Made by a program: the position numbers and the translations under genes. This document shows, piece after piece, positions 45,201-61,399 of a stretch of 64,000 nt of DNA (position 1 is the stretch's first letter; each line of letters starts with the position of its first letter). The notes below the pieces were generated by a model. The model worked only from the letters and a program-made list of their open reading frames with translations, ran no database searches and was not told the DNA's origin. The stretch comes from Maylandia zebra (Eukaryota > Chordata > Actinopteri > Cichliformes > Cichlidae), in the NCBI RefSeq assembly GCF_041146795.1, contig NC_135167.1:4926454-4990453 (forward strand), written 5' to 3'.

Positions 45201-48200
45201 TGAAAAACTGAATATGGAACAAGCAAAACTTAATACTAAACAATATATATATTAGCTGTATAATACCAGTAGGCCAGCTCTAATAGTAATTTGGTATGGC
45301 TTCGCGGGCCAAATGTAATTAGTCTGCGGGCCAAATTTGGTGTCTGATCGAAGAGTCACGTTCATTTGGCTTTTTAAGAAGCGTTCAGGCTCGACCGTTT
45401 CAGTCACAATTTCAGTCGTGTGCTTCAGCTGTAGGAAAGATCACTTACTTTAGTGAGAATGTCTGGAGTTACTGCAGCCACTGGTATTACACTGCCTACC
45501 AGCAAACACATGAAGCTCACAACTTGCCTCTTCCTAACAGCATGTGTTTTGATAGCTACCGGTAAACAGCTGTGAGATTTTTAATTTTTTTTCAGTATTG
45601 ATGTAAATGTCATTTAATTTGCCATTAGGCCCAACTAGACTGACTATCAGCTCATTAATTTGTTCCATTTCTAATCACTTGCTTTATTTTTCTAAAGATA
45701 CTGTCCTCAGAACCAGATGAGATTCTCTGTAACAACACCAAGATGCTGCGGGAGCGTCTGAGCATATCTGGAGATAGACTGGGGGAAGAGCACCGAGAGC
45801 AGGACGATGGCTACGTCTATGATCTTTACTACCAGGAAACGGTCACCCCAGGGTGGATCCAGGACATCCTGTCTGTCAGAGCCTATGCTGATGAGGGAGA
45901 ACTGGTGTGTGTGGATGGATGGACGGACAGATGAATGAGTGCTGAAATTGGAGTGAGTGAATGGGTGGAGTGGTCCAAATTTTACAGTGGGGCAAAAAAG
46001 TATTTAGTCAGCCACCGATTGTGCAAGTTCCCCCACCTAAAATGATGACAGAGGTCAGTAATTTGCACCAGAGGTACACTTCAACTGTGAGACACAGAAT
46101 GTGGAAAAAAAAAAAAATCCATGAATCCACATGGTAGGATTTGTAAAGAATTTATTCGTAAATCAGGGTGGAAAATAAGTATTTGGTCAATAACAAAAAT
46201 ACAACTCAATACTTTGTAACATAACCTTTGTTGGCAATAACAGAGGTCAAACGTTTACTATAGGTCTTTACCAGGTTTGCACACACAGTAGCTGGTATTT
46301 TGGCCCATTCCTCCATGCAGATCTTCTCGAGAGCAGTGATGTTTTGGGGCTGTCGCCGAGCAACACGGACTTTCAACTCCCGCCACAGATTTTCTATGGG
46401 GTTGAGGTCTGGAGACTGGCTAGGCCACTCCAGGACTTTCAAATGCTTCTTACGGAGCCACTCCTTTGTTGCCCGGGCGGTGTGTTTTGGATCATTGTCA
46501 TGTTGGAAGACCCAGCCTCGTTTAATCTTCAAAGTTCTCACTGATGGAAGGAGGTTTTGGCTCAAAATCTCACGAAACATGGCCCCATTCATTCTGTCCT
46601 TAACACGGATCAGTCGTCCTGTCCCCTTGGCAGAAAAACAGCCCCATAGCATGATGTTTCCACCCCCATGCTTCACAGTAGGTATGGTGTTCTTGGGATG
46701 CAACTCAGTATTCTTCTTCCTCCAAACACGACGAGTTGAGTTTATACTAAAAAGTTCTACTTTGGTTTCATCTGACCACATGACATTCTCCCAATCCTCT
46801 GCTGTATCATCCATGTGCTCTCTGGCAAACTTCAGACGGGCCTGGACATGCACTGGCTTCAGCAGCGGAACACGTCTGGCACTGCGGGATTTGATTCCCT
46901 GCCGTTGTGGTGTGTTACTGATGGTGACCTTTGTTACTTTGGTCCCAGCTCTCTGCAGGTCATTCACCAGGTCCCCCCGTGTGGTTCTGGGATCTTTGCT
47001 CACCGTTCTCATGATCATTTTGACCCCACGGGATGAGATCTTGCGTGGAGCCCCAGATCGAGGGAGATTATCAGTGGTCTTGTATGTCTTCCATTTTCTG
47101 ATGATTGCTCCCACAGTTGATTTTTTCACACCAAGCTGCTTGCCTATTGTAGATTCACTCTTCCCAGTCTGGTGCAGGTCTACAATACTTTTCCTGGTGT
47201 CCTTCGAAAGCTCTTTGGTCTTGGCCATGGCGGAGTTTGGAGTCTGACTGTTTGAGGCTGTGGACAGGTGTCTTTTATACAGATGATGAGTTCAAACAGG
47301 TGCCATTCATACAGGTAACGAGTGGGGGACAGAAAAGCTTCTTACAGAAGACGTTACAGGTCTGTGAGAGCCAGAGATTTTCCTTGTTTGAGGTGACCAA
47401 ATACTTATTTTCCACCCTAATTTACGAATAAATTCTTTACAAATCCTACCATGTGAATTCATGGATTTTTTTTTTTCCACATTCTGTGTCTCACAGTTGA
47501 AGTGTACCTCTGGTGCAAATTACTGACCTCTGTCATCATTTTAAGTGGGGGAACTTGCACAATCGGTGGCTGACTAAATACTTTTTTGCCCCACTGTATA
47601 TTTGGAAAAATAAATGATGGTCAGGTGGTAAACAGGTGGCCTTTAAAGCAGAAATATTATTTGATATTTACAGGGGAGTATCCTGTCATTGCTATAAAAT
47701 GATCGCTTGTTTGTAAACAAGCATCACTACTTTGTAATGGTGCCTGGGGAATGTAGAAACATTTTGTTGCATTACTGCCACCTTCTGGTGGTGGTAGTTC
47801 ATTACAGTTTGGCACTAGTTTAAAATAATCTCAAAAGGGTAGAAGAGGGGTTAAGATGAGAAAAATGTTGGGGTTTTTTGTAACTTAACTGATGATTTTT
47901 AAATGGTGTTTATTTTAAAGCATTGAAAGTAAAAATTTAAGCAAGAAGATTGTTTAGTTTTGTTGCCCTGGATGTGTGGAGAAGTAATTTGCCAAAGCAT
48001 ACCGTTAGGGTTTCTTCTTATCAGTGATGACTCAAAATCTCACTGGTAATTTTTAATATCAAACCACAACACTGACTTAATCATTTATTAAAAAAAAAAA
48101 AAAAAAAAAAGCTTTTCTGATAAATGTGGTGTTTTTAATCTCAGGTTCCTGACCTTGTGGTTCATGAAGAGGAAGTGTATGAAGATGAGGATGATGAGAA

Positions 48201-57400: not shown

Positions 57401-60400
57401 ATGTAGTACAGAAAATAGGGTGGGAGGTTAGTCACATAAAAGTGACTGATGGCAGCATTCTACTGACCATTACAGGATGGTGTTGAAAGCTGACTTTTTT
57501 TTCTCCTCTAAACGACCCTAAAATAGAGTCATTTAGTAACCCAACAATCTCAAAGCAGAGCCACAAGCAGAGCTGCAGAGTGAAGCAGGTTTTGCTTACA
57601 TTGTAAAAACTCACAGTTCTTATATGTGCTGTCTTTTCCAGGCAATGGACTTGACAGGTATACCAGCAATGGCTGGTATACCTGTCAAGTCCAATATCAC
57701 TGTCCACCTCCCTGCTGCCTTAAAACAAGCTGCGAAAAATGTTAACAATGTAGCCTGCACTTTCTTCAAGAACATCTCCCTGTTACAGGTAAGGCTGTTT
57801 GCCTTCAGTCGATACAGGCACATATGATAGGATTTCAGGTGACCTTATTTAGCTGTCAGCCTGCAATTTTTTCCAGTGTTCACATTTGCGATTCTATCTG
57901 GAATACTTTTGTTGCTTTGTGTGCAAATATTTATGCTGCATTGTGTAAGATGAAGGTCAAGTTGTGTGTGTTTGTTTCAGGAGGCTCACAAAACTGCCAA
58001 GCCTATCAATGATGTGGTGGAAATCACGGTGGAGAACGAGATCATCAGAAATCTGCCTGAACCCATTAGGATAGATTTTTACCATGAAGCCGTATCTGTA
58101 AGTTTGTGTGTTTCTGTGGCGTTTAGCCTGTATCAGTACGCTCCCCACCCACTTTATATTACTTAAAGCTACTTCCTTAAACTGACACTTACTGTACCAA
58201 ATAGTAACTGCTGAAATTGACTGCAATGTGCTGCAGTGCAAATATCAGTAAACACTCAGGGTGACAAATATGGCTTAGGTGCAGAAAACAAAAGCAAAAT
58301 GCTGTTAAGTTCTGTAATATCAGCCTGTTGACCTCAAAGGTGCAACAAGCACAGAAACCATGTGTAGCAAAAATAGACTGCGGTCTTAATGCGCATAGTT
58401 TCTGTGAAGTAGTCATGGTAACACATGAAACTCCCTGTTTTTATGTTAACTGTGATCTAAACATTCTTTAGCATTATGGCGATACACAGTAAGCCAGATT
58501 ATGTATGCAGCAAATAGGAAACAACTTTAAAGGAACTAAAATGTAAATATGTCCAACAAATGCGATATATGCAACTTCTTATTGGGAGATGTCTGCAGCT
58601 CACATCTTTGTTCCCTCTTTATTTCAGGAAAGCTATTTAAGGACATGTGTTTCTTGGGACACTAGAAAAGGTTGGAATCCTTTAGTGGCCATGCATACAG
58701 AGGTTTGCAAAAGTATTCGGCCCCCTTGAACTTTTTCACATTTTGTCACATTACAGCCACAAACATGAATCAGTTGCATTGTATTGGTCTTTCACGTGGA
58801 ATTCCAAAGTGGTGTACACATGAGAAGTGGAACGAAAATCATACATGATTCCAAACATTTTTTTTACAAATAAATAACTGCAGGGTGGGGTGTGCGTAAT
58901 TATTCAGCCCCCTTTGGTCTGAGTGCAGTCAGTTGCCCATAGACATTGCCTGATGAGTGCTAATGACTACATACAGTGCACCTGTGTGTAATCTAATGTC
59001 AGTACAAATCCAGCTGCTCTGTGACGGCCTCAGAGAATATTGGGAGCAACAACACCATGAAGTCCAAAGAACACAGCAGACAGGTCAGGGATAAAGTTAT
59101 TGAGAAATTTAAAGCAGGCTTAGGCTACAAAAAGATTTCCCAAGCCTTGAACATCCCACGGAGCACTGTTCAAGCCATCATTCAGAAATGGAAGGAGTAT
59201 GGCACAACTGTAAACCTACCAAGACAAGGCCGTCCACCTAAACTCACAGGCCGAACAAGGAGAGCTGATCAGAAATGCAGCCAAGAGGCCCATGGTGACT
59301 CTGGACGAGCTGCAGAGATCTACAGCTCAGGTGGGGGAATCTGTCCATAGGACAACTATACTAGATCTCAGTGCATCGTTCGATACTGTTGACCATAATA
59401 TCCTATTAGAGCGATTAGAACATGCTGTAGGTATTACAGGTACTGCACTCCAGTGGTTTGTATCATATCTATCTAATAGACTCCAATTTGTACATGTAAA
59501 TGGAGAGTCCTCTTCACATACTAAGGTCAATTATGGTGTTCCACAGGGTTCAGTGCTAGGACCAATTCTGTTTACATTATACATGCTTGCCCTAGGCAAT
59601 ATTATTAGAAGACATAGCATACATTTTCACTGCTATACAGATGACACCCAGCTCTATCTGTCCATGAAGCCAGATAACACACCAATTAGTTAAACTGCAG
59701 GAATGTCTTAAAGACATAAAGACCTGGATGGCTGCCAACTTTCTGCTTAATTCAGATAAAACTGAGGTTATTGTACTCGGCCCTGAAAAGCTTAGAAATA
59801 TGGTATCTAAGCAGATTGTTACTCTGGATGGCATTACCTTGGCCTCCAGTAATGCTGTGAGGAACCTTGGAGTCATTTTTGACCAGGACATGTCCTTCAA
59901 CACACATTAAACAAATATGTAAGACTGCTTTCTTCCATTTGCGCAACATCTCTGAAGTTACAAATATCCTGTCTAAGAGTGACGCTGAAAAACTAGTTCA
60001 TGCTTTTATTACTTCCAGGCTGGACTACTGCAATTCGTTATTATCAGGATGTGCAAAAAACTTTCTGAAAAGCCTTCAGCTAATCCAAAATGCTGCAGCA
60101 AGAGTCCTGACAGGGACTAGAAAGAGAGAGCATATTTCTCCTGTATTGGCTTCCCTTCATTGGCTTCCTGTTAAATCCAGAATTGAATTCAAAATCCTGC
60201 TCCTCACATACAAGGTGTTGTGTCCCCCACAAGCCATGTGGGGGACACAGCAAACATGTGGAAGAAGGTGCTCTGGTCAGATGAGACCAAAATGGAACTT
60301 TTTGGCCAAAATGCAAAACACTGTGTGGCGGAAAACTAACACTGCACATCACTCTGAACGCACCATCCACCATCTCTTCATCTGGGACAGGGAAGCTGGT

Positions 60401-61255
60401 CAGAGTTGATGGGAAGATGGATGGAGCCAAATACAGGGCAATCTTGGAAGGAAATCTCTTGAAGTCTGCAAAAGACTTGAGACTGGGGCGGAGGTTCACC
60501 TTCCAGCAGGACAACAACCCTAAACATAAAGCCAGAGCAACAATGGAATGGTTTAAAACAAAACACATCCATGTGTTAGAATTGCCCAGTCAAAGTCCAG
60601 ATCTAAATCCAATCAAGAATCTGTGGCAAGATCTGGAAACTGCTGTTCACAAACGCTGTCCATCTAATCTGACTGAGCTGGAGCTGTTTTGCAAAGAAGA
60701 ATGGGCAAAGATTTCAGTCTCTAGATGTGCAAAGCTGGTAGAGACAGACCCTAAAAGACTAAATAAATCAGTCTTTGCAGCAAAAGGTGGTTCTATAAAG
60801 TGTTGACTCAGAAGGCTGAATTATTACACACACACACCCCACTTTTCAGTTATTTATTTGTAAAAAATGTTTGGAATCATGTATGATTTTCAATCCACTT
60901 CTCACGTGTACACCACTTTCTGTTGGTCTTTCATGTGGAATTCCAATGCAATTGATTCATGTTTGTGGCTATAATGTGACAAAATGTTGTCACATTACAA
61001 AAGTCTTGAACTTTTGTAATGTAATGGGCCAATACTTTTGCAAGCCACTGTATTTGACATTATTAATTATTATCTATCTGTATTTCCCATTTTCTTTCCC
61101 ATAATTCCCACCAATGAGCTTTAACTGATTTATATTTTCCTGCTGCAGATTCTCTGCAGGTGAACTGGTCAAATGATGGATGTGAGACACAACAGAAAGG
61201 GGAAAACCACACTGTGTGTCTGTGTAACCATACAACTTACTTCACTGTCCTGGTG
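54492..61255 (+). CDS. adgrg1: Adhesion GPCR G1-like (GPR56), 5' nine coding exons only
   Basis: Coding exons seen: 54492-54531, 55254-55525, 55849-56035, 56266-56308, 56512-56590, 57642-57788, 57981-58097, 58628-58670, 61149-61255 (1035 nt, 345 codons), all in phase. The ATG follows an in-frame TGA 21 bases upstream. A signal peptide ([13 protein letters not shown]) leads into a pentraxin/laminin-like domain ([41 protein letters not shown]). A GAIN domain follows ([42 protein letters not shown]) and a [23 protein letters not shown], with a usable His-Thr-Thr triad. The order of domains fits ADGRG1/GPR56, a receptor for extracellular-matrix ligands. Exon 4 has a tandem CAGCAG acceptor. TM exons are not found before 64000, so the gene continues beyond the window or is interrupted by the repeat tract. 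Confidence 0.85.
57646..57693. repeat. Perfect 22-bp-arm hairpin inside a coding exon
   Basis: The left arm 57646-57667 (starting tggacttgacagg) and right arm 57672-57693 are exact complements around a 4-base loop AATG. It encodes [15 protein letters not shown] at the start of exon 6 of the ADGRG1-like gene and keeps the frame. Confidence 0.95.
59361..60220 (+). mobile_element. Internal LINE-2-like ORF2 fragment captured in Tc1
   Basis: Starts [19 protein letters not shown] (RT motif A), continues with [18 protein letters not shown] (motif B region) and [11 protein letters not shown] (motif C, YTDD). After two frameshifts it reads [16 protein letters not shown] and the C-terminal tail ending [11 protein letters not shown]. 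Both ends are internal to the LINE: the N-terminal endonuclease and the 3' end with tail are absent. At the left junction the Tc1 frame ([10 protein letters not shown]) runs directly into the LINE frame. Confidence 0.85.
60221..60247. repeat. Hairpin at the LINE/Tc1 right junction
   Basis: Arms TGTCCCCCACA (60221-60231) and its complement (60237-60247) around a 5-base loop AGCCA, exactly where the LINE sequence gives way to Tc1 sequence. Confidence 0.85.
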
Positions 61256-61399
61256 GTAAGACACCGCTTTTCATACAACAATAAAAACAGTAATGAGATG
61301 TTGCTTATAAGTACTAAGTCGTTTTAAAGATGTATAAAATAGATGTTCTCTAGCATATCGAGACTATCTCTCCACACCGTTACATATTCCATATGTACG

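Follow-up and report, generated by a model that had tools for sequence, protein, structure and literature searches.

Animal Pack-TIRs are elements with terminal inverted repeats (TIRs) that carry picked-up sequence, acquired mostly by gap filling (Tan et al. 2021, PMC8277862). In that account, their breakpoints are explained by gap filling with template switching, and multicopy Pack-TIRs are put down to transposition after fork switching. At breaks left by Tc1 in Caenorhabditis elegans, single-base homology is used for repair, and 24% of the deletions contain templated inserts, produced by polymerase theta from nearby sequence (PMC4490562). Class 2 templated insertions of the human genome are patches of distant DNA at double-strand breaks, by contrast with those of class 1, which show a target duplication and polyadenylation (PMC5110952). 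The Tc1 group of teleosts and lampreys comprises a fish element of ~1.6 kb present in many copies (PMC3516227). Here we describe a Tc1 element of the cichlid Maylandia zebra in which an internal fragment of a long interspersed nuclear element (LINE) replaces part of the transposase sequence. It lies in a stretch of 64,000 nucleotides, hereafter called the window (C1:4926454-4990453 in an assembly of 962,127,851 bases).

We call this element (58698-61050 of the window) copy 1, and a second chimera found at C1:5,027,854-5,035,534 copy 2. Our favoured explanation, to which we give a probability of about 0.5, is that a break at a hairpin of a Tc1 element was patched with LINE sequence during repair, and that the chimeric core then spread by ectopic gene conversion into a resident Tc1 insertion, without transposing.

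As a Pack-TIR-like element, the chimera belongs to a known kind, its filler being a retrotransposon: copy 1 holds foreign sequence between the TIRs of an element with target duplications. Like the Pack-TIRs described in PMC8277862, it has an interior copied from elsewhere, a small gap in the transposon and an internal breakpoint. It differs from them in that its filler is a LINE fragment for which no nearby donor was found, its breakpoint contains an inverted templated filler, and its two copies have cores and arms of different ages; the term “gene conversion” does not occur in the main text of that paper. Its less common features are the inverted filler, a LINE in the role of filler and the sign of a core moving by conversion. 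The resemblance to repair by polymerase theta in C. elegans lies in a Tc1-associated break and a templated insert from adjacent sequence, but the break described there is an excision site in a host gene, whereas the chimera was broken within the element itself and gained a long fragment from a distant source (PMC4490562). As in class 2 insertions, distant DNA patches a break, although here inside a fish transposon (PMC5110952). By its description as a many-copy fish Tc1, the teleost and lamprey group resembles the Tc1 part of the chimera (PMC3516227). Among the papers listed in our literature searches, no title or abstract opening dealt with a piece of LINE within a Tc1 of fish, and a full-text search for six sequence strings gave no match.

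The preliminary description of the window had proposed a TA-flanked Tc1 element with a piece of LINE in its transposase, and this was borne out by the TIRs, the TA dinucleotides, Pfam matches and native sequences that read through both junctions (Table 1). The TIRs of copy 1 are ~200 bp long. Its protein has the paired-type helix-turn-helix (HTH) and the DDE transposase that characterize the Tc1 branch of Tc1/mariner elements, and its structure matches are pieces of the Sleeping Beauty transposase, 2m8e and 5cr4. A second Tc1 HTH piece, HTH_Tnp_Tc3_2, was detected at 2.1e-05, below the curated cut-off, and the reverse-transcriptase match (RVT_1, positions 62-162 of 205 in the profile) is in the same frame.

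Table 1. Features of copy 1 in window coordinates
Feature	Positions	Strand	Basis
TA, left target-site copy	58696..58697	.	direct reading
5' Tc1 TIR (pairs with the 3' TIR)	58698..58897	+	inverted-repeat search and self-BLAST
29-nt inversion within 5' TIR, copy 1 only	58779..58807	+	comparison with natives; genome pattern search
Tc1 transposase N-terminal (DNA-binding) part	59057..59359	+	Pfam HTH_SB 2.8e-21; native alignment
Left Tc1/LINE junction, unassigned A at 59360 between the two	59359..59361	+	native Tc1 and LINE comparison; 2 places genome-wide
Internal LINE ORF2 fragment (RT motif A onward to C-terminal region)	59361..60215	+	RVT_1 8e-17; genome LINE copies
Non-native 11-nt filler TGTTGTGTCCC	60216..60226	+	inverted repeat; comparison with natives
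Native Tc1 quasi-palindrome CCACA-AGCCA-TGTGG, probable snap-back primer	60227..60241	+	native alignment
Resumed Tc1 transposase C part (DDE_3)	60227..60829	+	Pfam DDE_3 1.6e-11; Sleeping Beauty 5cr4 3.2e-40
3' Tc1 TIR	60830..61050	+	inverted-repeat search, self-BLAST, native alignment
TA, right target-site copy	61051..61052	.	direct reading

The native order of the Tc1 was read from six copies first and from 38 later; these come from the best 40 of 1474 candidates for one probe, two of them being the chimeras, and are not a random sample. Tc1 sequence stops after ...GGACAACTAT (59359) and restarts at CCACAAGCCATGTGG (60227), where native copies read ACTAT/TAGTC... (the slash marks the stop) and CCACAAGCC..., respectively. 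The LINE piece begins with CTAGATCTCAG, preceded by the single A, and native LINE copies read ...GTCCTGCTAGACCTCAG at that point; it ends with ...ACATACAAGG(T) (60215/60216), from which native LINE copies continue as CTTAAATAATCAGG. At the left junction the three sequences compared are ACTATTAGTC in native Tc1, CCTGCTAGACC in native LINE and ACTATACTAGATC in the chimera. Both junctions could be placed because native Tc1 and native LINE copies of the same genome read through them. Relative to the native reference copy L006, 95 bp of Tc1 are missing from the chimera, which corresponds to ~32 transposase residues and not to the ~60 estimated earlier. The absence of both the 5' part and the 3' end from the LINE piece, also noted earlier, was in turn confirmed, as native LINE copies extend beyond the piece on both sides; two of them in the window have a further ~650-700 bp after the break before ending in a TAAATAAAATTGAATTGAA-type tail. 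Comparison with native Tc1 and LINE copies revealed no target duplication at either junction. Microhomology amounts to none or 1 nt on the left and to 1 nt (T at 60216) on the right, where it is accompanied by the 11-nt inverted filler.

This filler matches the reverse complement of Tc1 positions 60242-60252 at 10 of 11 positions (chance ~8e-6 at equal base use, uncorrected for choice), and it extends the native quasi-palindrome. The exact quasi-palindrome is present in 29 of the 38 natives, all of which have GCA[GC]TTTG before the hairpin and lack the filler; the other 11 of the 40 aligned rows are the two chimeras, cut at the hairpin, and nine natives without the exact 15-mer. Because it lengthens a native hairpin, the filler looks like a snap-back scar and points to break repair. 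We thus propose that 95 bp were lost at a break within a Tc1 element, that the right-hand 3' end folded on TGTGG/CCACA and would have been extended by ~11 nt, in snap-back synthesis of the polymerase-theta type, to yield the filler, and that the gap may then have been patched in the same step with a copy of ~855 bp of internal LINE sequence. Independent insertions at the hairpin occur in two of the 38 sampled natives: an 80-bp foreign stretch in L007 (1600-1760) and, in L058, five 20-nt units arranged in tandem (1140-1300; both in element orientation). This hairpin is possibly a fragile site.

The founding event was either such a one-step DNA patch or the insertion of a 5'-truncated LINE followed by a deletion. 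According to the latter scenario, a LINE truncated at its 5' end entered the Tc1 by target-primed reverse transcription, and a deletion then removed its 3' part together with the right target duplication and as much as 95 bp of Tc1; the snap-back scar would be the trace of that deletion. LINE copies are usually 5'-truncated, and the two best-matching LINE copies of the window start part-way into the piece. Moreover, the repair scar is confined to the right junction, as expected if that were the sole deletion junction. Against this scenario, no intermediate was seen in this one assembly, in which both loci with the left junction share the same right junction. We consider the two-step origin somewhat doubtful but a serious alternative. 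The preliminary description had dismissed target-primed insertion for want of the LINE 3' end and of a target duplication, which holds for a simple insertion but goes too far, since a 5'-truncated insertion with a deletion across the 3' end gives the same structure. Its proposal of capture by gap repair or template switching agrees with the repair-type right junction, with the two-step origin kept beside it.

The piece, earlier designated LINE-2-like, shows RVT_1 similarity and matches to the family's own genomic copies only. Its closest genomic copies are ~95% identical to it (best 40 of 3766 candidates). Copies 1 and 2 have in common 28 substitutions and three deletions (7 bp) relative to the young LINE family; at one further site they differ both from that family and from each other, and five changes are private to copy 1 and three to copy 2. 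Given these many shared differences and a mean difference of 0.8% for 18 native LINE copies, the donor was probably an older copy or subfamily. The 124-kb joined stretch contains no full-length LINE donor for the piece other than the two chimeras. In copy 2, the predicted fusion frame begins at the Tc1 start, includes the RT motif YADD and is uninterrupted over 212 amino acids, whereas a 2-bp deletion shifts it in copy 1, so that it ends there at 97 amino acids.

The preliminary description had suggested a search for the junctions at several loci. Using 32-base patterns with up to three mismatches, beyond which more diverged junctions would fall outside, we found two matches to each junction in the 962-Mb assembly, every one exact and on the forward strand. 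The matches outside the window, C1:5028514 and C1:5029375, lie on the same chromosome at a distance of 42.7 kb and in the same orientation. Among the best 40 of 1474 candidates for a 121-base probe, only the two chimeras were full-length. Homology between copies 1 and 2 starts at the TIR and their flanks are unrelated; on the left of copy 2, TG stands in place of TA, and on its right the TA is present. The presence of the same junctions at two loci with different flanks argues against both an assembly join and a one-off event. No large chimeric family was seen with the junction patterns in this assembly, and pattern searches of viral contigs and of genome contigs gave 0 exact matches. In protein scans of viral contigs, 7 and 6 stretches fitted the peptide pattern, none of which was confirmed.

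An artefactual joining of Tc1 to LINE in the assembly, which had been named as a finding that would overturn the chimera, is hardly credible: nothing was seen in its favour, both junctions recur identically between different flanks, and we rejected it unless both loci were misassembled alike. The shared chromosome, the common orientation and the 42.7-kb spacing would suit a segmental duplication of the chimera-bearing stretch. Homology nevertheless ends at the element ends, and in view of the unrelated flanks we rejected this explanation as very improbable.

Copy 2 is interrupted by an insertion of 5,297 bp (C1:5030009-5035305) that is presumably hAT-like: its ends are of the TAGTGATGGG type and its duplication, CAAAGTAT, is 8 bp long. 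Inside the insertion are long repeats and a fragment resembling reverse transcriptase. Elsewhere in the sample, two truncated Tc1 loci 0.75 Mb apart (L049 and L050) share ~0.9 kb past their broken end at 99%, reflecting either a segmental duplication or a common neighbouring repeat.

The two copies do not diverge evenly. In the core they differ at 6/604 Tc1 positions and 9/853 LINE positions (15/1457, 1.0%), as against 31/695 positions in the arms (4.5%; Fisher 1.2e-6; arm counts omit the inversion at 58773-58805, the deletion scar at 60372-60383, a cluster at 60761-60832 and the fold-back at 60987-61050). Pairs of native Tc1 copies show median differences of 4-6% in the same arm stretches, so in their arms copies 1 and 2 look like any two Tc1 copies. 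Their arm/core ratio is 4.5; for natives the median was 1.46 and the maximum 3.58 (105 pairs, from 15 of the 38 natives). The best tract of low divergence, 59020-60445, has 12/1410 differences inside versus 41/818 outside, a contrast reached by 0 of 200 permutations (omitted: 58774-58805, 60370-60384, 60761-60774 and 60987-61050). In the core tree, which leaves out 13 of 40 rows as incomplete or >12% diverged, the copies are sisters (support 99/97, bootstrap not fully settled); the arm tree, which leaves out 22 of 40 on the same grounds, does not join them. Ranked by arm identity to copy 2, copy 1 is 14th of 17 rows.

A core 1.0% diverged between arms 4.5% diverged favours ectopic conversion between resident Tc1 insertions over transposition. 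At some time after the founding event, conversion would thus have copied the chimeric core, both junctions included, from one of the two Tc1 insertions to the other. The direction may be read from the end branches, which in the arms are 0.036 for copy 1 and 0.013 for copy 2, and in the core 0.0033 and 0.0068, respectively, with a shared stem of 0.0085. By these branch lengths the arms and core of copy 2 are alike in age, while the arms of copy 1 are older than its core, which fits conversion of copy 1 by copy 2. The private changes of copy 1 are denser in the right arm (8/376) than in the core (7/1457; p 0.005). Copy 1 was probably the recipient, with old arms around a young core, and copy 2 probably the founder. 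Among the best 40 of 1476 candidates, no closer relative of the right arm of copy 1 was found, the others reaching ≤93% over arm positions 1-612.

Alternatively, the chimera may have transposed locally across the 42.7 kb, with transposase supplied in trans, and its arms may have diverged later by conversion or local mutation. Both copies are TA-flanked (apart from the TG of copy 2), and their flanks are unrelated. Sleeping Beauty hops locally, with ~80% of events within 3 Mb in frog according to PMC3271037, so a spacing of 43 kb would fit transposition too. The approximately unbiased (AU) test on the arms is compatible with common arms, as it does not reject the two copies as a clade (p-AU 0.495; star-like tree). 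On the other side stand the difference between arms and core, an arm/core ratio exceeding that of every one of the 105 native pairs, and the extra events needed on both arms. We consider local transposition, like the two-step origin, somewhat doubtful but a serious alternative. The mobility suggested in the preliminary description agrees with the occurrence of two loci but is weakened, because a young shared core inside unrelated-looking arms fits conversion better.

Like the local hopping and the AU test, several other observations weigh against repair followed by conversion. From copy 1, copy 2 is the nearest arm row by identity, although barely (31/695 versus 30/660). Rare alleles common to both copies are only weakly uneven in their distribution (binomial 0.04-0.08): the core has 5 and the arms 1 that are present in ≤4/38 natives, or 3 and 1 at ≤2/38, and the copies also have a 2-bp deletion of the core in common. 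For copy 2, private changes show no significant excess in the right arm over the core (4/376 versus 8/1457, p 0.28). As for the founding event, the left junction has no clear microhomology, and no full-length LINE donor closer than ~95% was found among the best 40 of 3766 candidates.

The transposase of copy 1 is not intact. Besides the 95-bp replacement, it has frameshifts, including the 2-bp deletion at ~59263 that is absent from copy 2 and from all 38 natives, and a 41-bp deletion at 60370 that is absent from copy 2 and from six natives. The codon at 60615-60617, which we take to specify the third catalytic residue, is AAG in copy 1 and GAG in copy 2, with G at 60615 in 26 of the 38 natives; the 5cr4 alignment pairs the Sleeping Beauty E with the K of copy 1. 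The reverse complement of the inversion in the 5' TIR restores the native order at 29/29 bases (compared with L067) or 28/29. We rejected this inversion as a subfamily trait, since it occurs at one place in the genome at ≤3 mismatches. The 3' TIR of copy 1 has a fold-back rearrangement (60988-61025) of a stretch that is ~23 nt shorter in copy 2 and in the first six natives. The inversion and the fold-back are two small template-switch-like changes in copy 1.

Directly downstream of copy 1, positions 61150-61260 encode a GPS motif exon of an adhesion-GPCR-like gene (Pfam GPS 1.5e-12), and copy 1 may lie in an intron of that gene. The window also contains a second Tc1-type element of a different family (~46000-47581, minus strand) with TIRs 97% alike; one end of this element lay at the edge of the examined stretch. 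Its transposase frame, from MAKTKEL to KGYVTKY, is uninterrupted, and by eye the DDE residues are present in it.

The chimera provides a base-resolved case of the pick-up of foreign sequence by a DNA transposon, with a repair scar at the junction. It also calls for caution, as a chimeric junction at two loci does not by itself prove transposition. If patching followed by conversion is correct, a young foreign core is enclosed by old arms at one insertion site, and conversion between resident copies would be a way for a capture to multiply even when no working element is at hand. In a many-copy Tc1 family, such cores would then have a means of spreading that needs no transposition.

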